A stretch of DNA of 32,050 nt from Thermoanaerobaculia bacterium (GTDB lineage: Bacteria > Acidobacteriota > Thermoanaerobaculia > Multivoradales > JAHEKO01), in assembly GCA_945787525.1 (NCBI GenBank), contig CALZJC010000002.1, forward strand, positions 1-32,050, written 5' to 3'. Positions 8,129-20,004 of the stretch are shown in pieces (the stretch's first letter is position 1; each line of letters opens with the position of its first letter). A program made the position numbers and the translations under genes. The notes under the pieces are model-generated. The model was not told the origin of the DNA, did not search any database, and saw nothing but the letters and a program-made list of their open reading frames with translations.

Positions 8129-8617
8129 CTAGCCCCCGACGAAGTGCCGGTAGCCGCGGTTCCAGTACACCAGCGGCTGATCTTCGGGCCGCGGGATGGC
8201 GTGCGCCTGGACCTCGCCGATGTAGATGGTGTGGGTCCCCGACGGGAAGCGGTCACGGATCGTGCAGTCGAGCCAGGCGAGGGCATCTTCGAGAATGGGC
8301 GCGCCGGTCACCGCTTCACCCCAGCTGCCCACGGCGAAGCGGTCCTCGTCCTTGACCCAGGCAAACCGGTTGGAAAGCTCGGTGTGGTCCTCGCCCAGAA
8401 TGTTGACAGCGAAGACCGCGCCCTCCTCCTCCAGTAGCCGGTAGCCGTAGTGCTCGTGGTCGACGATCACGCAGACGAGGGGCGGATCGGGAGAGACCGA
8501 AGCGAACGCCGAAACGGTCAGACCGTGGCGCCTCCCGCCGGCTTGGACGGTGACGATGGTGACACCGGCCGGGAACAGCCGCATGGCATGACGGTACTCC
8601 TCCGACGAGATCGACAT
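8129..8617 (-). CDS. Flavin reductase family protein (FMN-binding split barrel)
   Basis: MSISSEEYRHAMRLFPAGVTIVTVQAGGRRHGLTVSAFASVSPDPPLVCVIVDHE...FAVNILGEDHTELSNRFA; flavin-reductase-like domain pattern. Confidence 0.9.
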   Translation of the reverse strand: MSISSEEYRHAMRLFPAGVTIVTVQAGGRRHGLTVSAFASVSPDPPLVCVIVDHEHYGYRLLEEEGAVFAVNILGEDHTELSNRFAWVKDEDRFAVGSWGEAVTGAPILEDALAWLDCTIRDRFPSGTHTIYIGEVQAHAIPRPEDQPLVYWNRGYRHFVGG

Positions 8618-8756
8618 CGGGGCGACTCTAGCAGCCCGTGGTAGAGGTCTGGACGGCCGCGCGGCAAGGGCTTTCGGTTCGGCAGCCGGCAAGATCGCGA
8701 CCCCGGATTCCGTCCGTTCGGGTGCGGCCGGGCCATGAGGCCGCGGCCCGGTCACC

Positions 8757-9107
8757 ATGAGCAGCCGATCCCGTCGCCGCCAGCGTTCCAGGGGCCGCCG
8801 CCGATTTCCCCGCTGGCAGGTACCCGACGGCCGGCTGGTCGGGCCGGTCATGACCGCCAGGGTGCTCGATCTGGGCCCGGCCGGCGCTCATATCGAAACC
8901 ACCAGCGCGCTGCGCGTCGGCGCTCCCTACGCCTTCACCCTCGAGCTGGCGGGCCCCAACCGCCGCCTGCACGGCCGCGTCCGGTGGTGCCGCCTGGTCG
9001 GCACCCGCGCGGCGACCGCTGGTGAGCGGACGCCGGTCTACCGCGCCGGCGTCGTCTGGAACACCCAGGGCCTGCCGCCAATCCGCCGCCCGGAGGGTGG
9101 CCGATAG
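8757..9107 (+). CDS. PilZ domain protein
   Basis: RRRFPRWQVPDGRLVGPVMTARVLDLGPAGAHIETTSALRVGAPYAFTLELAGPNRRLHGRVRWCRLVG: RxxxR...D/NxSxxG-like arrangement. Confidence 0.75.
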   Translation: MSSRSRRRQRSRGRRRFPRWQVPDGRLVGPVMTARVLDLGPAGAHIETTSALRVGAPYAFTLELAGPNRRLHGRVRWCRLVGTRAATAGERTPVYRAGVVWNTQGLPPIRRPEGGR

Positions 9108-9121
9108 CCTGCCCACCCGTG

Positions 9122-10933
9122 TCAGTACCGATCCAGATGGCCGCGCTCGGCGTCGCCCATCTCCACACCGCCCTCGGGGAAGTACTCTCTCCATCGCCGG
9201 TCCACCTTGCGGGCGACCTCCGGATCGCAGCACAGCTCATCGGGAAAGCCCGGCTTGAGGCGCGCATCGATGAGGATCGGCGGCCGGTAGGAGAGGTGGT
9301 TGCGCAGCGGCTCGCGACCCGCGGCGTGGATGTCCGCCGCCGGCTCGAAACGCGTGAACGTGGTCCACAGGAAGTTCATCGCCGAGGCGGCCGCGCGCCG
9401 GGGTTCGTCGGTCAGAACCACCAGCGGCCAGTCGGCGAAAGCGGCGTTGGCCGCCAGCCGGCTGGCGGCTTCGCGCTCGTCGGCGAGCCGGGGCCCGCCG
9501 ACCACGAGACATCCCGGGCAGAAGACCTCGACCTCGCTGACGCCGATCGGCAGCTCGGCCGAGAACTCCCGCGGCAGCTCCCGCACCGGATCGCCCAGCC
9601 CCAGCCAGACACCCTTCGAGCCCTCGTTGACCGCCGGCCCGGTGTAGTCGAGCGTGTCCATCGACAGGTTGGCGAAAACAAACAGATCGGTCTCGGGGCG
9701 GGTGCGCGCGAGCAGGTGGACCAGGGTGGCGCGGAAGTCCTTGAGATCCACCTCCCGATCGGTCACCAGGAGGAACTTGGTCAACGACAGCTGGCCCTCG
9801 CCGAGGATGCGAAAGGCGCTGACCATCGCCTCGCGCCGGTAGCGCTCGCGCACCACGGCCGCGGCCAGCGAGTGGTAGCCGGTCTCACCGTAGGACCAGA
9901 GATCCTTGACGCCGGGCATCACCAGCGGGAACAACGGCGCCAACAGCTCCTGCAGCAGATCGCCGATGAAAAAGTCCTCCTGCCGCGGCTTGCCGACCAC
10001 GGTGGCCGGGTAGATGGCGTCACGGCGGCGCGCCAGCCGCTGGACTTCGAAGACGGGGTAGTCGTGGGTCAGCGAGTAGTAACCGTAGTGGTCGCCGAAC
10101 GGACCCTCGGGCCGCCGCTCCCGGGGTGGGACGACGCCGCTCAGAGCGATCTCCGCCGTCGCCGGCACCGGATGCCCCCCCGGTCCCTCGACCACCGGCA
10201 GCCGGCCGCCGGCGATGAGCGAGGCCAGCATCAACTCGGGCAGATTCTCGGGCAGCGGCGCGATCGCCGAGAGGATCAGAGCCGGCGGTCCGCCCAGGAA
10301 GATCGTCGCCGGCAGCGGCTCGCCCCGCTCCTCCGCCACGCGGTAGTGGAAACCGCCGCCCTTGCCGATCTGCCAGTGCATGCCGGTGGTGCGCGGCCCG
10401 TGCACCTGCAGGCGGTAGAGACCCAGGTTGTGGCGACCGTCCTCCGGGTGCTGGGTGTAGGTCAGGCCGAGGGTCAGGAACGGGCCACCGTCCTCGGGCC
10501 AGGTTGTCAGAGCCGGCAGCCGGGTCAGGTCGACGTCGTCGCTCACCTGCTCGAGCACCGGCCCGCCGCGCTGGCGCCTGAGGCCCACCCGCAAAGCCTC
10601 CCAGGCCAGGTCGCGCGCCCCCCACAGCCGGCCGGGGGTCGGCGGCAGCAGCTCCTCGGCCAGCGCCGCCAGCCGCCGAATCAGCCGGAACGGCCGCTGG
10701 CCGAATGCCAGCTCGGCGCGCCGCGCGGTACCGAACAGATTGGTCACCGCCGGCAGCTCGGCGCCCCGGATCCGGTTGAAGAGCAGGGCCGGACCCCCGG
10801 CGGCGATCACCCGCCGGTGGATCTCGGCGGCCTCCTGGTCGGGGTCGACCTCGGCCTCGACCACCACCAGGTCGCCGTCGCGGCGCAGCTGTTCCAGAAA
10901 CGAGCGTAGATCGGCGAAAGTCTGGAGGCTCAT
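9122..10933 (-). CDS. UbiD family decarboxylase
   Basis: 603 aa; MSLQTFADLRSFLEQLRRDGDLVVVEAEVDPDQEAAEIHRRVIAAGGPALLFNRIRGAELPAVTNLFGTARR...; GPFGDHYGYYSLTHDYPVFEVQRLARRRDAIYPATVVGKPRQED typical of UbiD/menaquinone-type decarboxylases. Confidence 0.93.
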   Translation of the reverse strand: MSLQTFADLRSFLEQLRRDGDLVVVEAEVDPDQEAAEIHRRVIAAGGPALLFNRIRGAELPAVTNLFGTARRAELAFGQRPFRLIRRLAALAEELLPPTPGRLWGARDLAWEALRVGLRRQRGGPVLEQVSDDVDLTRLPALTTWPEDGGPFLTLGLTYTQHPEDGRHNLGLYRLQVHGPRTTGMHWQIGKGGGFHYRVAEERGEPLPATIFLGGPPALILSAIAPLPENLPELMLASLIAGGRLPVVEGPGGHPVPATAEIALSGVVPPRERRPEGPFGDHYGYYSLTHDYPVFEVQRLARRRDAIYPATVVGKPRQEDFFIGDLLQELLAPLFPLVMPGVKDLWSYGETGYHSLAAAVVRERYRREAMVSAFRILGEGQLSLTKFLLVTDREVDLKDFRATLVHLLARTRPETDLFVFANLSMDTLDYTGPAVNEGSKGVWLGLGDPVRELPREFSAELPIGVSEVEVFCPGCLVVGGPRLADEREAASRLAANAAFADWPLVVLTDEPRRAAASAMNFLWTTFTRFEPAADIHAAGREPLRNHLSYRPPILIDARLKPGFPDELCCDPEVARKVDRRWREYFPEGGVEMGDAERGHLDRY

Positions 10934-11044: not shown

Positions 11045-12112
11045 ATGAGCTACGACCTCTTCTCGAGCCCGGCCGCGCGAGAGCCGGGACCGGTGGCCCT
11101 GACAGAGGCCATCGCCGCGAAGGACCTCAACAACCTCTATCTGACCAGCTGCTATTTCGCCGACCCGGTGCGCTACGCCGCGTTCTGCTCGCTGTACGCG
11201 CTGATGCGCGTCATCGACGATCGAGTCGACGCGTTGCCACAGGATGCGACCGGCTTCGACCCCGCCGGCGAGCACGATGTGCTTCGCTTCTGGGAAGAGG
11301 CGCTGTTCGAGGCGGCCGACGGAGCGGCACCGCCGTCGGGGCTGGCTGAGCGCTGCCGCATGCCCGAGGCACGGCCGCTGGTAACCGAGGCGGCGCGGGC
11401 GATGCAGCGGTTTCCCTTCCCCCGGAAGCTGTGGCGGAACTTCTTCTCGGCGATGCACCGCGACATCGAGCAAGCTCGGTTCGAGACCTACCAGGAGTTC
11501 CTCGACTACACCGAAGGAGCCAGCGTCGCGCCGACCTCGATCTACCTATACCTCGTCGCCGCCGGCAACGAGTCCAGCACGGGCGCCTACGTCCTGCCGG
11601 ACGGCTTCGACCTCATTCACTGCGGCCGCCACCTGGGCGTCTTCTCCTATCTGGCGCACATCCTTCGGGATATGGCCCTCGACCTGGAGACCGGCGAGAA
11701 GGGCCTGCTCTATCTGGCGCGGGAGGACCTGAGCCGTTTTGGCCTCGACGAGGCGAGACTGCGTCAGGACCTCGAGAAGGGCAAGGCCCGGGAGTCGCTG
11801 CGAGAGCTGGCGGCCGAGCTGGCGCGGCGAGCCTACGAAGCCAGGGATCGCGGCGTCGCCGAACTCGAGCCCCTGCAGGGTCATCTGGAGCCGGACTGCG
11901 CCTTCATCCTGGAGGTCATCCTGGAGATCTACGGGCAGGCCCTCGCCAAGCTGGCCGCCGTCTCTTTCGACCCGATGACGGGCAAGCACCACCTGAGCCT
12001 CGAGGAGAAGTACGCGACCGTCAGCCGCGTCGCCCAACGCCTGGGATTCACGCCGCCGGCGGACGTTCTGTCCAGGCGGCCGATCGCCGCGGCCAGTCGC
12101 CCGCGGGCCTGA
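11045..12112 (+). CDS. Squalene/phytoene synthase family protein (trans-isoprenyl diphosphate synthase, head-to-head)
   Basis: First Asp motif YALMRVIDDRVDA; second HILRDMALDLETGEKGLLYLAREDL; overall squalene/phytoene synthase pattern. Confidence 0.85.
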   Translation: MSYDLFSSPAAREPGPVALTEAIAAKDLNNLYLTSCYFADPVRYAAFCSLYALMRVIDDRVDALPQDATGFDPAGEHDVLRFWEEALFEAADGAAPPSGLAERCRMPEARPLVTEAARAMQRFPFPRKLWRNFFSAMHRDIEQARFETYQEFLDYTEGASVAPTSIYLYLVAAGNESSTGAYVLPDGFDLIHCGRHLGVFSYLAHILRDMALDLETGEKGLLYLAREDLSRFGLDEARLRQDLEKGKARESLRELAAELARRAYEARDRGVAELEPLQGHLEPDCAFILEVILEIYGQALAKLAAVSFDPMTGKHHLSLEEKYATVSRVAQRLGFTPPADVLSRRPIAAASRPRA

Positions 12113-13316
12113 CGAAATCCCACAGAAAACCGGGCCGCAGGATCTCGGTCTTGGCGACCGCATGGCCCATCAGCCCCATGAAGCGGTCGGCCCATCGTCG
12201 GCTGGCGGCGGCCCTGGCGACGGCCAGGTCCACCAGACCCGGCCGGGCGTGGAAGCGCTGCAGCAGCCTGCCGAGACGGAACTCGGTCAGCATCCGGCGA
12301 CGCCACACCCGCTCGAAATCGCCCATCGGCCCGGCCGTGGAGAGATCGCCGGCCGCGATCGCCCGGTCCGCGAGAGCGGCGGCATCGACCCCGCTGCTCA
12401 TGGCGTTGTGGATGCCGTGGCCGGTGAACGGATCGACGAAGCCCGCAGCGTCGCCGACCAGCATCACGCCATCGGCGACAACGCGGCGGCCGTCGTGTCC
12501 GCCGGGCAGCAGCCAGCCCTCCACGTCCCGCACGCTGTCGAGGTCCACGTGCTGCCGCAACAAGCGCTCGAGCCGCCGGCGGAGCTTGACGCCGCGCGCT
12601 CGCCGATCGACTTCGACCATGCCCACACCGATGTTGGCGCGCCCATCGGGCTGCGGCACTATCCAGCAGCAACCAGGCATCAGCTCACGATCGGTGATCA
12701 CCGTGAGGTACCGGTCACCCTCCGGCCAGTCGGCGTAGGCCCGCATGCCGACGTAGAGGTCGTTGCCGCGACTGCCGCGGGCGGCCGGCGGTCGGATACC
12801 GCTCTCCCTCGCCACCCGGCTGGCCGCTCCGTCGGCACCGATGACGACACGCGCGTCGAGGGTCTCGATGCCCCGCGGAGTGTCGATCTGAAGCCGGCTG
12901 AAACGGCCCTCACCGTGCCGCCGGAGCCGCACCAGCCGATGCTCTTGCCGCAACTCGGCGCCGCAGCTCACGGCATGCGCCGCGAGCCGTGCGTCGAGCT
13001 TCTCACGAGGCAGGATTCGCCAGGGATGCACGGTGCCTCGCGCATCGCAAAACCCGCCCTGGATCCGCCGACCGCTCGCCGACACGTAGCGGCATCCGTC
13101 GAGCGACAGCGCATCGGGAGCGATGGCCTCCAGACTCGTGCCGACTCGCGACAGCGATCCGTCGACCTCTGGCAGCAGGACGTCGCCGCAGACCTTGTCA
13201 CGCGGGAAGCCGGCGGCGTCGAGAAGGACCACCGACCTGCCTCGGCGAGCGAGCAGCGAAGCGGCAAGGCTGCCCGCCGGGCCGGCCCCCACGACGACGA
13301 CTTCGGCAACGCTCAC
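12048..13316 (-). CDS. Geranylgeranyl reductase family FAD-dependent oxidoreductase
   Basis: GTG start at 13316: VSVAEVVVVGAGPAGSLAASLLARRGRSVVLLDAAGFPRDKVCGDVLLPE (FAD-binding GxGxxG plus DKxCG) and VMLVGDAAGFVDPFTGHGIHNAMSSG. Confidence 0.88.
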   Translation of the reverse strand: MSVAEVVVVGAGPAGSLAASLLARRGRSVVLLDAAGFPRDKVCGDVLLPEVDGSLSRVGTSLEAIAPDALSLDGCRYVSASGRRIQGGFCDARGTVHPWRILPREKLDARLAAHAVSCGAELRQEHRLVRLRRHGEGRFSRLQIDTPRGIETLDARVVIGADGAASRVARESGIRPPAARGSRGNDLYVGMRAYADWPEGDRYLTVITDRELMPGCCWIVPQPDGRANIGVGMVEVDRRARGVKLRRRLERLLRQHVDLDSVRDVEGWLLPGGHDGRRVVADGVMLVGDAAGFVDPFTGHGIHNAMSSGVDAAALADRAIAAGDLSTAGPMGDFERVWRRRMLTEFRLGRLLQRFHARPGLVDLAVARAAASRRWADRFMGLMGHAVAKTEILRPGFLWDFVRPAGDWPRRSAAWTERPPAA

Positions 13317-13347
13317 GCCGCGAGCGCCCCCCGCTGTCCTGCCGCCC

Positions 13348-14187
13348 TCATCTCCGTGTCCCGGCGCCGTCGCCGCCGGTTTGGATCGCCGCCACATGGG
13401 TTCCCGGGACCGCTCTGCCAGCCAGCGCGCGCGCCAGCCTGCCGGGCTCCAGACCGTTGAGGATCCACGAGTCGACACCCAGTCGGGCGAGGGCGGCGGC
13501 GGTCTCCAGCCGGTGCCGCATGCCGCCGGTGACGTCGGTGCCGGCGGCCTCACCGGCCGACGCCAGGACGCGGCGCAGGTTGGCGCCCGTGACCGCCTCG
13601 ACCAGGCGCCCGTCGCGATCGTAGACACCCTCCGTCTCGCCCAGCCACAGCACGCGCGCCACCGGGCGACGGCGCCGTCGCAGGGCATTCACCAGGGCCC
13701 GGAAGACGCTCTCGGTCGAGCAGATGGCGGCGCCCTGGCGCCGATCCAGCACCACGTCGCCGTAGGTGACGGGCAGCAGGCGTCGATCGAGCGCGTGCAG
13801 GAGAGGCTCGAGCGCCAGGCCGACCGGCCGGCCGCCGCTGGCGCTCATGAAGCTCGACGGCGCCAGCGAGAACGGCGCCGCGCCCGCTGCGAGCCGGCCG
13901 TCGACGACCAGGCGATGCAGCGCCGCGGCGCGCGCCTGGGTCTCGGACACGCCGACCAGCTGGCTTCGACCGGCCACGCCCCGATGGACCCCATGCCGGG
14001 CCGCCGCGGGGTGGCCGAACGAGCCGCTGCCGTGGCCGACGATCAGCCGGCCGGCGCTCGCGTCCGACGCGCCTGCGATCTCGCCCGCCAACCGGGCGAT
14101 CACCCGGCCGCGCGATCGGCCGGGCCGGCGCTTGTCGGTGATCAGGCTGCCGCCCAGCTTGACCAGGGTCAGCGAAGCGCGCGTCAA
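13348..14187 (-). CDS. Isopentenyl phosphate kinase (IPK)
   Basis: Sense part of the longer ORF starts at TTG 14187: LTLVKLGGSLITDKRRPG...LIVGHGSGSFGHPAA (catalytic-His HGxGSFGH signature)...PVTYGDVVLDRRQGAAICSTE...VLWLGETEGVYDRDG...AGTDVTGGMRHRLE...SWILNG. Close to archaeal IPK organisation. Confidence 0.9.
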   Translation of the reverse strand: MTRASLTLVKLGGSLITDKRRPGRSRGRVIARLAGEIAGASDASAGRLIVGHGSGSFGHPAAARHGVHRGVAGRSQLVGVSETQARAAALHRLVVDGRLAAGAAPFSLAPSSFMSASGGRPVGLALEPLLHALDRRLLPVTYGDVVLDRRQGAAICSTESVFRALVNALRRRRRPVARVLWLGETEGVYDRDGRLVEAVTGANLRRVLASAGEAAGTDVTGGMRHRLETAAALARLGVDSWILNGLEPGRLARALAGRAVPGTHVAAIQTGGDGAGTRR

Positions 14188-15182
14188 AACAGGTGCTCCT
14201 CGATCGACCGCGGCCCGGTGCCCACCCGGTCCCGTAGCAGCGAGATCACTCGCGGCAGCCCGGCGAGCGCCGCCGCCACCGCCTCCTCGTCTCCAGGCCC
14301 ACAGATGACGTGCACGTTGGGCCCCGCGTCCATGGTGAACCAGGCGCCGACACCGCGCGCTCGCAGCTGGCGCACCGCCTCCAGGACCTCGAGCGTGCCC
14401 GGGCGCCAGTAGAAGATGGGCGGCCGGGACGACATGGCGATCAGGTGCAGATCGATCGCCTCCTGCTCGACGATCGGGCCGAGCCGTTCCAGATCCCGGT
14501 CCCGGATCGCCTGTCCCACCGCCGCCAGACGCTCGCCGAGCCGTTCCTGGCGCAGGGCGAACTGCGGGCTGGTCGAGGCACGGCGGTGGCCCTCGCGGGA
14601 GGAGACCGACTTGAAAGCTGTGTCGACCACGGCGACCAGATCGCACAACGGCCAGTGATCGGCTGGAGCCAGCGAGACGGCCGGGCTCGCGGGGTCGGCA
14701 TCGTCGGCCGGCCAGCGCACGTAGCCGCCCATCACCGAGCGCGCCGCCGAGCCCGAGCCGCTCAGCCGCGCCAGCAACGACAGCTCGGCCGCATCCGGGT
14801 CGCGCTCGAGGCTCGCCGCTACCGCTATGGCGAGCGCCGCAAAGCCGGCGGCCGAGGAGGCGATGCCCGCGCCGGTGGGAAAGTTGTTGCGCGTGGCGAC
14901 CCGGAACGGGACCTCGACGGCGGCCCACCGCCGCAGCTGATCGAGATGACGGCGCACGCCCGCGACGAACGCCACCGGTGCCTCTTCCAGTACGCCGCCG
15001 GCCGTCGCCAGCAGGACCTCGTCTCGGCCGGCTGCCGGTAAGCGCTCCACCGTGGTCCGCGCGCGGCAGTGATCGAGCGTCATGGACACCGAGGCGTTCT
15101 CCGGCAGCGCCGACTCCAGATCCCGCGCCCCCCAGTACTTGATGAAGGCGATGTTGGCCGGGGCTTCGACCGTTACCTTCAA
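14184..15182 (-). CDS. Mevalonate (di)phosphate decarboxylase family GHMP enzyme; candidate phosphomevalonate decarboxylase
   Basis: TTG start 15182: LKVTVEAPANIAFIKYWGARDLESALPENASVSMTLD...NNFPTGAGIASSAAGFAALA...LSGSGSAARSVMGGYVRWP...GAWFTMDAGPNVHVICG. MDD-family motifs with conserved Asp (MDAGPN) and Ser/Arg (GSGSAAR). Confidence 0.92.
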   Translation of the reverse strand: MKVTVEAPANIAFIKYWGARDLESALPENASVSMTLDHCRARTTVERLPAAGRDEVLLATAGGVLEEAPVAFVAGVRRHLDQLRRWAAVEVPFRVATRNNFPTGAGIASSAAGFAALAIAVAASLERDPDAAELSLLARLSGSGSAARSVMGGYVRWPADDADPASPAVSLAPADHWPLCDLVAVVDTAFKSVSSREGHRRASTSPQFALRQERLGERLAAVGQAIRDRDLERLGPIVEQEAIDLHLIAMSSRPPIFYWRPGTLEVLEAVRQLRARGVGAWFTMDAGPNVHVICGPGDEEAVAAALAGLPRVISLLRDRVGTGPRSIEEHLF

Positions 15183-16264
15183 GCTGCCCCCACCCGCAGC
15201 CCCGGAGCGCCCATGGCGCACTCGATACGACGCCAACCGGCGGGCGCGGGCGGCGCCCGTCGCGCTGACAGAGAGTAGACCAGCAGACAGCCGGCGGCAG
15301 CGCCGCTCAGCGCTCCGGCACCCGAGATCTTCGCCGCACCACCGGCCCGTTCCAGCCGCCGCACCATCCGGCGAACCGGCTCCGGCACGACGCCCACCTC
15401 TTCCAGGCAGCGCTCGAAGTCGCGCACCGGCGCCGCCACGGCGGCGCGGTCACCGCTCTCGAGCGCCGCGCGAAAGCTCATCGCTGCGGTGCGCATCCTG
15501 GCCAAGACGGTATCGAAGCCGGCCGGATCGTCCCGTCGGCGATCGGCGACCGCCGCCACGACGGCGCCGGTGCTCTCGGCCGGCGGCCCGCTGTCGTAGA
15601 TGCGGAAGGCTTGCAGCAGCTCGGGCCGGGCCGCCACCGGCCGCAGCCGCAGTTCGCCAGCGGCATCGCGATCGGCCCACTGGAGGCCGCCGCGCAGGAC
15701 GGTGCCGTGATCGACCCCCGAAGGGCGGCCGTGCTGACGCCGCTCCACCTCCAGCGCCAACCGCCCCACCCGTTCCGGATCCGCCTCGCCACCGCGCCAG
15801 GCGAGAAAACCGGCGATCACCGACACGGCCACCGCCGCCGAAGAGCCAAACCCGGCGCCCACCGGAAGCTCGGAGCGGACCCGCAGACGAAGCGGCGGCA
15901 GAGCCTCGGGAGCCCGCTCAACCGCGGCCTCGCCCAGCGCCACCCGGACCAGGGCCGCCGGGTCGTCGTCGCGCTCGAAAAGGGCGCCCTCGCGATATGC
16001 CAGCCAGCGCGCCCGGGCTCGAGCGGTGTGCTCGGCGATCTCCCGCCAGCTGCCGTGAGTGTGTATCCCGAGGTCCGGCAGATCCAGCTCGACACCCTGG
16101 CCGACGCCGTCGCCGAGCTCGGCTCGCACCCTGAGCCCGAGGGCCGCGGTCAGGGCCGGCTGACCATAGACCGCGCCGTGCTCGCCCATCAGGATCAGCT
16201 TGCCGGGTGCGGAGACAGCGACCACGGTACGCCGAGCCCGGGAGCTAGGATGAGCCGTTGCCAC
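15179..16264 (-). CDS. Mevalonate kinase (GHMP kinase)
   Basis: VVAVSAPGKLILMGEHGAVYGQPALTAAL; LPVGAGFGSSAAVAVSVIAGFL; RRQHGRPSGVDHGTVLRGG; AAKISGAGALSGAAAGCLLVY. Confidence 0.9.
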   Translation of the reverse strand: MATAHPSSRARRTVVAVSAPGKLILMGEHGAVYGQPALTAALGLRVRAELGDGVGQGVELDLPDLGIHTHGSWREIAEHTARARARWLAYREGALFERDDDPAALVRVALGEAAVERAPEALPPLRLRVRSELPVGAGFGSSAAVAVSVIAGFLAWRGGEADPERVGRLALEVERRQHGRPSGVDHGTVLRGGLQWADRDAAGELRLRPVAARPELLQAFRIYDSGPPAESTGAVVAAVADRRRDDPAGFDTVLARMRTAAMSFRAALESGDRAAVAAPVRDFERCLEEVGVVPEPVRRMVRRLERAGGAAKISGAGALSGAAAGCLLVYSLSARRAPPAPAGWRRIECAMGAPGLRVGAA

Positions 16265-17507
16265 GGCCCAGCCGTTCGTGGGCTCCGGCCAGGTCGCCCG
16301 AGGTGAACGCCGCCATCAGCGAGATCTCGCCCGCCAGCACCGTGGCGCCGAGGATCTCGGCCAACCGCAACGAGCCGGCCCCCGGCTTGCCCGCTTCGGC
16401 TGCGGCGCCCAGCAGGGCCAGCGCCTCGCGCTGGGTGCTCAGCGCGGTGCCGCCGCCCACCACGCCGAGCGGCACGTCGGGCATGAAGATCGACGCCAGC
16501 ACACCGCCCTCGCCCGACGGCTCGACCGTGGTCATGCCCATCGAGCCCTCCACCACCTGCGCCACGTCCTGGCCGGTGGCGATGAAGAACGCCGCCAGCA
16601 CGTTGGCAAAGTGGGCGTTCGATCCCATCGCTCCGGCGGCGATCGAGCCGATCAGGTTCTTGCGGTACTGGACCTCGATCATCGCCTCGGCGCGGGTCTT
16701 GAGACAGCCCTCGAGGATCTCCGGCCCGAGCTGGACCTCGGCGTGGATCCGCTTGCCGCGGCCCTCGAGAAAGTTGATCGCCGACGGCTTCTTGTCGACG
16801 CAGTAGTTGCCCGACAGGGCGACGCAGCGAACGCCGGTCTCCGGCTCGATCAGCTGCTGCACGACCCGATCGCAGGCGATGGTTGCCATGTTCATGCCCA
16901 TGGCGTCGCCCGAGTGGAAACGGAATCGCACGAAGATCGAGGTTCCGATCGCCTGGGTCTTGATGTCGGCCAGACGCAGGAAACGGCTGGTGCCTTCGGC
17001 GACCTCCCGGATCCGTTGCTCGTTGTCGCTCAGCCAGGCGAGGAAGCGCTCGCTCTGCTCGAGGCCGCTGGCGCGAAACACCGGCGCGCGCGTCATGCCG
17101 ACGTCCTCCACCCGCACCAACGCGCCCCCGGCCTCGACGATCGCGCGGCAGCCCCGGTTGACGCTGGCGATGAGCGCGCCTTCGGTGGTGGCCAGCGGCA
17201 CGTAGAGAGTCTCTTCCGGCCCGACCATCCGGCCACGCACACTCAGCGGCCCGGCGACCCCGAGCGGCACCTGGCTGATGCCGATGAAGTTCTCGCAGTG
17301 GCGGCTCGCGGCGCGCTCGGCGTCCAGAGAGTAGCGCCCCGAGTGCTCCAAGCCGCTGGAGCGCAGCGCCTCGATGGCGCGCCGCCGCACGCCGGCCGCC
17401 TGTTCGGCAGTCAGCTCCGCGGGAAGATCGTGCAGACGCCGCTCGCCGGCAACGATCGACCGCACCAGCTGCGCCAGCTCGTCCGTCTGTATCTTGGCTG
17501 GATCCAC
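16245..17507 (-). CDS. hmgA: Hydroxymethylglutaryl-CoA reductase, class I-like
   Basis: ENFIGISQVPLGVAGPL; TTEGALIASVNRGCRAI; FHSGDAMGMNMATIA; GNYCVDKKPSAINFLEGRGK; GMTTVEPSGEGGVLASIFMPDVPLGVVGGGT. Confidence 0.96.
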   Translation of the reverse strand: MDPAKIQTDELAQLVRSIVAGERRLHDLPAELTAEQAAGVRRRAIEALRSSGLEHSGRYSLDAERAASRHCENFIGISQVPLGVAGPLSVRGRMVGPEETLYVPLATTEGALIASVNRGCRAIVEAGGALVRVEDVGMTRAPVFRASGLEQSERFLAWLSDNEQRIREVAEGTSRFLRLADIKTQAIGTSIFVRFRFHSGDAMGMNMATIACDRVVQQLIEPETGVRCVALSGNYCVDKKPSAINFLEGRGKRIHAEVQLGPEILEGCLKTRAEAMIEVQYRKNLIGSIAAGAMGSNAHFANVLAAFFIATGQDVAQVVEGSMGMTTVEPSGEGGVLASIFMPDVPLGVVGGGTALSTQREALALLGAAAEAGKPGAGSLRLAEILGATVLAGEISLMAAFTSGDLAGAHERLGRGNGSS

Positions 17508-17510
17508 AGC

Positions 17511-18587
17511 TCAGATCCTCTCGCTGCGCCGTCGCAGGGGGGCGCGTCGAAGCGCCGTCAGATCGGCGGCACCGGCGCAGAACATGGCGATCTCGAGCTC
17601 ACGCACCACGCGCGCGGCGCGAGCCACCACCGCTTCGGCGGACTCGTTGGCGGCCTCCAGGAAACGCTGCGCCAAACCCACCAGGTCGGCGCCAAAGGCG
17701 ATCGCCTTGGCTGCATCGAGCCCGTTGCGCACGCCACCGCTGCCGATGACGGTGGCGCCGGGGATCGCCGACAGCTGGCGGATCGACAGCGGTGTCGGCT
17801 CGCCCCAGTCGGCAAACAGCTCACCGATATCCGCCTCGCCCGACCGTGCAGCCTCGATCCGGGCCCAGCTCGTGCCGCCGACCCCAGCGGTGTCGAAGAT
17901 CTCGACGCCCACCTCGAGCAGCCGGCGCGCCGTCGCCGCCGACAAGCCGCAACCGATCTCCTTGACGATGACCGGCACATCGAGCCGGCTCACCACGTGG
18001 CCGATCTTGGCCGCCAGCCCCGAAAAGTCGCACTGCCCCTCGGGCTGAATGGCCTCCTGCAGCGGGTTGAGGTGAAAGACCAGCGCGTCGGCGTCGATCA
18101 TCTCCACCGCCGCCCGGCACTGGTCGAGGCCAAAGCCGTAGTTGAGCTGCACCGCCCCCAGGTTGGCCAGAATCGGCACCGAAGGGGCTTCGGCTCGCAC
18201 GCGGAAGCTGTCCGCCAGCGACGGGTCCTCGATCGCGTTGCGTTGCGACCCGACGCCGAGGGCGATGCCGGCCTCTTCCGCCGCCCGCGCCAGATTGCGG
18301 TTGATCCGCATCGCCTCGTCGGTGCCGCCGGTCATACAGGAGATCAGCAGCGGCGCTCGCAGCGCGCGTCCCAGGAAGCTCGTCGAGATGTCGATGTCGG
18401 CGTAGTCGATCTCCGGCAGGGCCGCGTGCTCCAGCTCCCAGGCGTCGAAGTAGCTGCCAGCCACCTGCATTCGCCGGTCGAGCGCCAGCGCGATGTGCTC
18501 CGCCTTGCGATCGCGCTCCTCGGGCTCGCCGGAGGCGGTTGGCGGGTCAGGCGGCGCCACTGGAGACTGCGGCTTCATCGTTGGCAT
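17511..18587 (-). CDS. fni: Isopentenyl-diphosphate delta-isomerase type 2
   Basis: RKAEHIALALDRRMQ; LLISCMTGGTDEAMRINRNLARAAEEAGIALGVGSQRNAIED; GVEIFDTAGVGGTSWARIE; ATVIGSGGVRNGLDAAKAIAFGADLVGLA. Confidence 0.95.
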   Translation of the reverse strand: MPTMKPQSPVAPPDPPTASGEPEERDRKAEHIALALDRRMQVAGSYFDAWELEHAALPEIDYADIDISTSFLGRALRAPLLISCMTGGTDEAMRINRNLARAAEEAGIALGVGSQRNAIEDPSLADSFRVRAEAPSVPILANLGAVQLNYGFGLDQCRAAVEMIDADALVFHLNPLQEAIQPEGQCDFSGLAAKIGHVVSRLDVPVIVKEIGCGLSAATARRLLEVGVEIFDTAGVGGTSWARIEAARSGEADIGELFADWGEPTPLSIRQLSAIPGATVIGSGGVRNGLDAAKAIAFGADLVGLAQRFLEAANESAEAVVARAARVVRELEIAMFCAGAADLTALRRAPLRRRSERI

Positions 18588-18635: not shown

Positions 18636-19988
18636 TTACTTTGGCGGCGAGGAGGCCGCCAGCGGTGCCAGGGCTTCGTCGAAGCGCACCGGCCCGCTCA
18701 GCGGCAGCCGCGGATCGTCCGTCATCAGGAAGCCCAGGCTGGCGGCGCGCTCCAGGGAGCCATGGGTCCAGCGCAGCCGGCCACCGGTCAAACGCGCCGC
18801 GCGCTCGGTCTTGCGCGCCCCGAACATATGCCCCGGGCCGGTCGAGCAGAGAACCGATGCCGGGTTGTCCACCAGCTCGAAGCTACGCGCCAGCCGGTGC
18901 AGCGCGTCGGGGTAGCGATGATCCGCGGTCGCCTCGAACCACCAGCGGTCGTCGCGCCACGAGCCGTCCGCCAGCTCGCCGTACTGCAACGGATCGCCGC
19001 CCCCCGGCCGGTAGCGCCATTCGGTACCGGCAGGTCCTGCGCGACGTTCGAACGACGCTTCGCCATCATCGTCCACCACCACCCATGACCCGGGCTCTCG
19101 GCGCACGCACAGATCGACGCCGTCGATTGCCGCGACGACGCTGGCCACCTCCGGCTCCATGCCCTCCGCGGTGTAGATCTCGAAGCTCGAGACCAGGCCG
19201 AAGGGCGTCAGCGCCACGTCGCGGGGGCCTTCGAGACGCCGGCGATAGCGAAAGCCGGCTTCGCGCAACCCGCGCTTGACCGGCTTGAAGACGTTGCGCA
19301 GCGGCTCACCTCCTGCCAGACCGTGATCCGAGAACAGCAGGACGTAGAACGGTCGCTGCCGGCGGGCCTCCGCCAGCATCTGTTCGAGGTCGGCCAGCAC
19401 GCCTTCGAACGCCTGCGGCCCCTGGAGATGCGCCAGGGTGTCGGTCGCGCCGTTGTAGACGTAGAAGACCGGCTTGTCCGAGCGCAGGAACGCGGCGATG
19501 GCGCGCTCGAACCAGCCGCGGGTCGCCTTGGCGGGCCGCAGGGCGGCCAGCATCCTCCGCGCCGGGCTCTTGCGGTTCCAGTCGAAGTAGTCGCGCCACT
19601 CGAACGGGATGCGGAAGTAGCTGAATAGCATGCCGCCCACCACCTGGCGTCGCTGCCAGTCGAAGAAGCGCGCCTCATAGCCGGGCGACTGCTCGAGCCC
19701 CAACGGGCGCAGGATGCCGCCAAAGGCGATACTGGTGGTCGAGGGGAAGCTGCTGATCAGCGGCACCGGCCCGCGCAGCCCGGCCAGCACACGGCGCTCG
19801 CCCCTCGCCGGGTCGGCGAACCGGGCCGCCGTGTCATAGGGCAGGCAGTCGAAGGCGATGACCAGGGTAGGTGGCGGTTCCTCCACCGCCCCGCCGGCAG
19901 GAGCCACAACCATCACGAGGGCGCCGACTAGAATCGACGCCAGCCCGCGGCCGGACCGACGGCCGCCTGACGCTCCGCCCACCGCCAT
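18636..19988 (-). CDS. Secreted alkaline phosphatase superfamily protein (type I phosphodiesterase/nucleotide pyrophosphatase-like)
   Basis: Signal-like segment LASILVGALVMVVAPAGGAVEEPPPTLVIAFDCLPYDT; FPSTTSIAFGG; YVYNGATDTLAHLQGPQAFE; VLLFSDHGLAGG. ATG at 19988 preferred over TTG at 20003. Confidence 0.8.
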   Translation of the reverse strand: MAVGGASGGRRSGRGLASILVGALVMVVAPAGGAVEEPPPTLVIAFDCLPYDTAARFADPARGERRVLAGLRGPVPLISSFPSTTSIAFGGILRPLGLEQSPGYEARFFDWQRRQVVGGMLFSYFRIPFEWRDYFDWNRKSPARRMLAALRPAKATRGWFERAIAAFLRSDKPVFYVYNGATDTLAHLQGPQAFEGVLADLEQMLAEARRQRPFYVLLFSDHGLAGGEPLRNVFKPVKRGLREAGFRYRRRLEGPRDVALTPFGLVSSFEIYTAEGMEPEVASVVAAIDGVDLCVRREPGSWVVVDDDGEASFERRAGPAGTEWRYRPGGGDPLQYGELADGSWRDDRWWFEATADHRYPDALHRLARSFELVDNPASVLCSTGPGHMFGARKTERAARLTGGRLRWTHGSLERAASLGFLMTDDPRLPLSGPVRFDEALAPLAASSPPK

Positions 19989-20004
19989 CTGCGCAAGATA
20001 CAAG

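Follow-up and report, generated by a model that had tools for sequence, protein, structure and literature searches.

Which route to IPP and DMAPP is used by a bacterium whose mevalonate genes stand beside a gene for isopentenyl phosphate kinase (IPK), with no phosphomevalonate kinase (PMK) among them? The question is raised by a window of 32,050 nucleotides, the whole stretch of DNA analysed here. It lies on contig C2 of a genome assembled from a metagenome, with a size of 4.43 Mb in 550 contigs and a completeness of 89%. The nearest named relatives of this genome are Acidobacteriota, and the bacterium belongs, as an uncultured representative, to the class Thermoanaerobaculia, in agreement with an earlier sequence-only reading of the same DNA that had placed it probably outside Chloroflexi. 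The cluster is predicted, with a probability that we put at about 87%, to encode the alternative ('haloarchaea-type') mevalonate pathway, this being the only route to IPP and DMAPP that could be found in this acidobacterium.

Gene organization of the cluster

Five genes that follow one another on the minus strand (13348-18587) form the core of the cluster, and a sixth comes after them. The first is fni (17511-18587), for an FMN-dependent type 2 isopentenyl-diphosphate isomerase; then come a class I-like HMG-CoA reductase (HMGR, 16245-17507, GTG start), mevalonate kinase (MVK, 15179-16264, GTG start), an MDD-family decarboxylase predicted to be a mevalonate-5-phosphate decarboxylase (MPD or PMD, 14184-15182, TTG start), IPK (13348-14187, TTG start) and, as an accessory element, a flavoprotein of the geranylgeranyl-reductase (GGR) family (12048 to about 13316, start uncertain). 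A gap of 3 nt separates fni and HMGR, HMGR and MVK overlap by 20 nt, and MVK/MPD and MPD/IPK overlap by 4 nt each (TTGA), the TTG starts of MPD and IPK overlapping the preceding stop. Taking the GTG at 13316 as the GGR start, the IPK/GGR gap is about 31 nt. The six minus-strand genes at 12048-18587, their order and the tiny gaps and overlaps between them had been described in the sequence-only reading, and all of these open reading frames and families were recovered.

Families were assigned with NCBIfam and Pfam profile models, the bit scores being compared with the cut-off of each model. Fni (TIGR02151, 382.9 bits, cut-off 281.3) and IPK (NF040647, 145.8 bits, cut-off 120) were above the equivalog cut-offs, the decarboxylase (TIGR01240, 226 bits, cut-off 171) and GGR (TIGR02032, 181.7 bits, cut-off 158.8) also passed, and HMGR (TIGR00533, 432.7 bits, cut-off 441.8; PF00368) and MVK (TIGR00549, 135.7 bits, cut-off 163) were slightly below theirs. 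Despite its score (433 vs 442), the predicted HMGR clearly belongs to class I, the class II model (TIGR00532) giving only 31.6 bits. For MVK the PMK model also gives only 31.6 bits, and all the strong PDB matches are mevalonate kinases, the best being 1kvk, 2r3v and 4hac.

The arrangement fni-HMGR-MVK-MPD-IPK is kept in the same order and strand in 25 of 80 named loci of relatives, so the cluster is not due to chance, and it probably works as one operon. The six-gene operon that had been proposed stands in its five-gene core; the GGR gene is a poorly conserved neighbour, and of the 80 loci of relatives L090 alone has a relative of it close to IPK. The best PDB match of the GGR-family protein is 3oz2. 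Archaeal-type membrane lipids, suggested by this gene, were considered and rejected as unlikely because no GGGP synthase was identified in the window's own genome, and a quinone or another prenyl chain is the more likely substrate.

Other genes surround the cluster. On the plus strand and outside the operon is a squalene/phytoene synthase-family gene (11045-12112; PF00494, 100 bits), a consumer of isoprenoids whose scores with the HpnC and HpnD models are far under the cut-off. A UbiD-family decarboxylase (9122-10933) and a flavin reductase (8129-8851), both on the minus strand, lie nearby, and in L050, L058 and L062 a UbiD homologue of 70-71% identity lies downstream of IPK, at a distance of about 1-2 kb. 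Just upstream of fni and on the same strand, an open reading frame of 455 aa (18636-20003) matches no Pfam family; visual inspection suggests a putative phosphodiesterase/nucleotide pyrophosphatase-type protein.

Specificity residues of the decarboxylase and IPK

The best PDB match of the decarboxylase is 6n0x/6n0y (6.8e-72), taken here as the MPD of Anaerolinea thermophila described by Thomas et al. 2019. In the aligned part its engineered variant 6n0z carries two changes, N to K and H to M. A later paper (PMC9254496) confirms the A. thermophila MPD structure and the work of Thomas et al., the entry code not being printed there, and describes how mutagenesis converted the specificity of PMD into that of DMD. 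In the window protein the two positions are occupied by A19, where MDDs have lysine, and by H199, where MDDs have methionine, the aligned MDD structures having lysine and methionine. Among 102 homologues (some genomes being present twice, so that independent genes are fewer, and one sequence being unreadable at the first position) lysine was found in 0 of 101 and histidine in all 102. A PMD-like motif of this kind, in which the lysine is lost but the histidine retained, has been described (PMC11052028).

The rest of the pocket is mixed. Arg83, Ala201 and Thr255 of the Roseiflexus MPD (PMC3857490) correspond to Ala, Ser and Ser in the window protein, which retains the diphosphate-binding serines of MDDs. 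The A. thermophila enzyme keeps these serines too, and the Roseiflexus-type residues are therefore not family-defining. With the archaeal MPD model (NF040704) the window decarboxylase reached 139 bits against a cut-off of 475. From the residues at the lysine and histidine positions the enzyme would be expected to act on mevalonate 5-phosphate. Since the TIGR01240 cut-off is passed, many such genes probably carry the annotation diphosphomevalonate decarboxylase, and surveys requiring PMK would miss them.

The best PDB match of IPK is another IPK (3ll9), and the 11 invariant residues listed by Dellas et al. 2013 are all present, including the catalytic His (H59); the protein probably acts on isopentenyl phosphate. 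A role as fosfomycin kinase was also considered and rejected, the FomA model giving 38 bits against a cut-off of 550.

Pathway repertoire of the genome

A single GHMP kinase and no PMK had been noted in the cluster, and genome-wide, too, no PMK was found. The GHMP family comprises four proteins, namely MVK, the decarboxylase, homoserine kinase (ThrB) and galactokinase (GalK), and since all four are accounted for there is neither a GHMP-type PMK nor IspE. Direct search of the 89%-complete genome gave no GHMP-type PMK either; the PMK model matched its Lactococcus control below the cut-off, so that on this point more weight is given to the GHMP inventory. The search that had been proposed for PMK, mevalonate 3-kinase, phosphomevalonate dehydratase (AcnX) and MEP genes found none of them: AcnX and the MEP markers IspH, DXR and IspG had no matches in this 89%-complete genome, the control genomes matching as expected, and the Thermoplasma-type mevalonate 3-kinase model (NF040847) gave 29.3 bits against a cut-off of 560. 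The genome has only one MDD homologue, which retains the catalytic Asp (D285) and Arg (R148), and the Thermoplasma-type pair of mevalonate 3-kinase and bisphosphomevalonate decarboxylase was not found.

An archaeal-type HMG-CoA synthase (TIGR00748, 436 bits, cut-off 353) is encoded away from the main cluster, overlapping a thiolase gene on contig C114 of the same genome, G000 (L151: 257-2451). With these two genes, and by way of MPD and IPK, each step between acetyl-CoA and DMAPP has a candidate gene. The synthase and the thiolase would supply HMG-CoA, HMGR would reduce it to mevalonate and MVK would yield mevalonate 5-phosphate; the MDD-like enzyme, acting as MPD, would phosphorylate the 3-OH and then decarboxylate to isopentenyl phosphate, which would be converted to IPP by IPK and to DMAPP by Fni. 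The claim of a complete alternative route from HMG-CoA to IPP/DMAPP is supported at the level of gene content, residues and the absence of PMK, AcnX and MEP markers, and this pathway is probably the sole route used.

Distribution in the order and phylum

In the order, IPK was identified in 48 of 60 genomes and MPD in 47. MPD is present in 47 of the 48 genomes with IPK and in 0 of the 12 without it, so that both are lacking in 12; the only IPK genome without MPD (G013) is 69% complete, and its IPK gene sits at the end of a contig. The distribution of MEP markers is bimodal, with genomes having either none or at least two of the three (DXR, IspG, IspH). Judged on these three genes, and with 'dual' meaning that markers of both routes are present, the 60 genomes comprise 26 with MPD and IPK only (the window's included), 22 dual, 11 with MEP only and one with neither. 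MEP is present in 11 of the 12 genomes without IPK (Fisher p = 0.007, relatedness ignored). In the last genome, G021 (8.0 Mb, 94% complete), IPK, MPD and the three MEP markers were all not found, probably through an assembly gap, since its genus-mate G036 carries MPD and IPK.

Faulty binning does not account for the dual genomes, since G028 carries the five genes on one contig (C1, WTGQ01000002.1): MPD at 494062, IPK at 495108, DXR at 534812, IspH at 549776 and IspG at 2625619. The window's own family contains the three states: among its genera, g4 is MEP-only, the dual state is seen in g2, g6, g7 and g9, and mevalonate-only genomes make up g1 (to which the window belongs), g3, g5 and g8. In the single-contig genome G057 (OX638294.1, L068) MPD and IspG are each split in two and IspH was not found; the split genes look like frameshift errors of long-read assembly rather than gene decay. 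A strong IPK match was identified in 25 of 396 sampled genomes of the phylum, and this order accounts for 21 of the 25. The cluster thus characterizes the order and is no one-off.

Of the protein phylogenies that had been proposed for the six genes, those of MPD and IPK were built, and both separate an Acidobacteriota-dominated clade from Chloroflexota (100 and 99% SH-aLRT). In both trees Acidobacteriota are joined by a few loci that carry the labels Gemmatimonadota, Rhodothermota, Planctomycetota and Schekmanbacteria. Similar IPK genes, most of them in MVK-MPD-IPK clusters, were identified in L048, L060 and L065 (Gemmatimonadales), L059 and L066 (Rhodothermia), L070 (Planctomycetota) and L054 (Schekmanbacteria). 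These loci, nested among acidobacterial ones, would reflect either lateral transfer or mislabelled bins, as the phylum labels of metagenome bins can be wrong. Horizontal transfer of the cluster is plausible, and neither donor nor direction is named because the backbone inside the clade is poorly supported.

The order may represent a natural series of pathway replacement, with MEP-only genomes, genomes with both routes complete side by side and genomes where MEP was lost and MPD and IPK kept, the decarboxylases being a further active-site type (Ala, Thr, Ile or Val for Lys, without the Chloroflexota Arg); we lean towards this view by a narrow measure. The order-level mosaic of MEP-only, dual and mevalonate-only genomes is the part most worth following, as with it the way in which an essential pathway is swapped would become testable on close relatives.

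Alternative explanations

The incomplete genome (89%) gives some room to the classical pathway, in which the decarboxylase would use mevalonate 5-diphosphate, PMK would be missing from the assembly or of an unrelated type, and IPK would serve for salvage only. The retained MDD serines agree with this, as does the higher score with the diphosphomevalonate decarboxylase model than with NF040704. However, PMK was above the cut-off in 0 of 60 relatives, though 47 carry the decarboxylase; IPK adjoins the decarboxylase gene and co-occurs with it in all genomes but one; and the decarboxylase itself is without the lysine and with the histidine. We regard the classical pathway as improbable. More room is left for a dual-specificity decarboxylase, intermediate between MPD and MDD and acting on both mevalonate 5-phosphate and 5-diphosphate, which is possible because the pocket is not a copy of the Roseiflexus MPD and the diphosphate-binding serines are kept. 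The mixed pocket, with the MPD state at the lysine and histidine positions and the MDD state at three serines, speaks for it, and dual activity has been reported for a Chloroflexota enzyme (PMC11052028); we give it a minor but real share of the probability. The flux would still pass through IPK, since no PMK is present and no diphosphate substrate would be made, and dual specificity is thus compatible with the alternative pathway, which would be unchanged.

Two other explanations are very improbable. The UbiD homologue and the flavin reductase a few kb from the cluster, with the recurrence of UbiD near IPK in three other loci, recall the archaeal modified pathway, where AcnX is followed by a UbiD-type decarboxylase; but AcnX is absent from the 89% assembly, its matches in relatives do not track IPK, and the presence of MPD makes such a route unnecessary. 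Contamination of the bin by another phylum could be suspected in a metagenome-assembled genome of this many contigs; against it, MPD and IPK fall within the Acidobacteriota-dominated clade and the cluster recurs in 8 of the 9 families of the order, also in assemblies made up of just 3 and 7 contigs. The alternative pathway, with MPD and IPK, is retained as the preferred explanation.

Comparison with known systems

In 2013 clear bacterial IPK homologues were reported only from the class Chloroflexi (PMC3857490), and Chloroflexota alone are named among bacteria for the MPD and IPK route in a 2024 paper (PMC11052028) and for the archaeal-type pathway in a 2026 review (PMC13001223). No description of this route in Thermoanaerobaculia or Acidobacteria/Acidobacteriota was found in the open-access literature, and the cluster is provisionally seen as a known pathway in a lineage for which no description of it was found. 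The range of a route treated as a speciality of archaea and Chloroflexota is thereby widened to an order of Acidobacteriota and to scattered relatives labelled as other phyla. The precedent in the same phylum is the 2017 report on the SD22 acidobacterium Mor1, which lacks MEP genes and has 'most genes of the mevalonate pathway'; MPD, IPK and the alternative route are not named in the passages located, and MEP genes are reported for all 31 genomes of cultivated Acidobacteria (PMC5462960).

The haloarchaea-type pathway of Haloferax volcanii (VanNice et al. 2014, cited in PMC9254496) has the same MPD and IPK chemistry. It is archaeal, however, and the window decarboxylase remains far below the cut-off of the archaeal MPD model. 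The A. thermophila MPD (6n0x, 6n0y) is the closest solved structure, both enzymes having a residue other than lysine and a histidine at the specificity positions, whereas its Asn and Arg are Ala and Ala in the window protein. Roseiflexus castenholzii (Chloroflexota; Dellas et al. 2013, PMC3857490) shares MVK, an MDD-like MPD and IPK, and the lack of PMK and MEP genes. It differs in phylum, in the pocket residues and in gene organization: the cluster here has five genes, whereas in those Chloroflexota loci where MVK, MPD and IPK can all be seen MVK is next to IPK and MPD is on the opposite strand.
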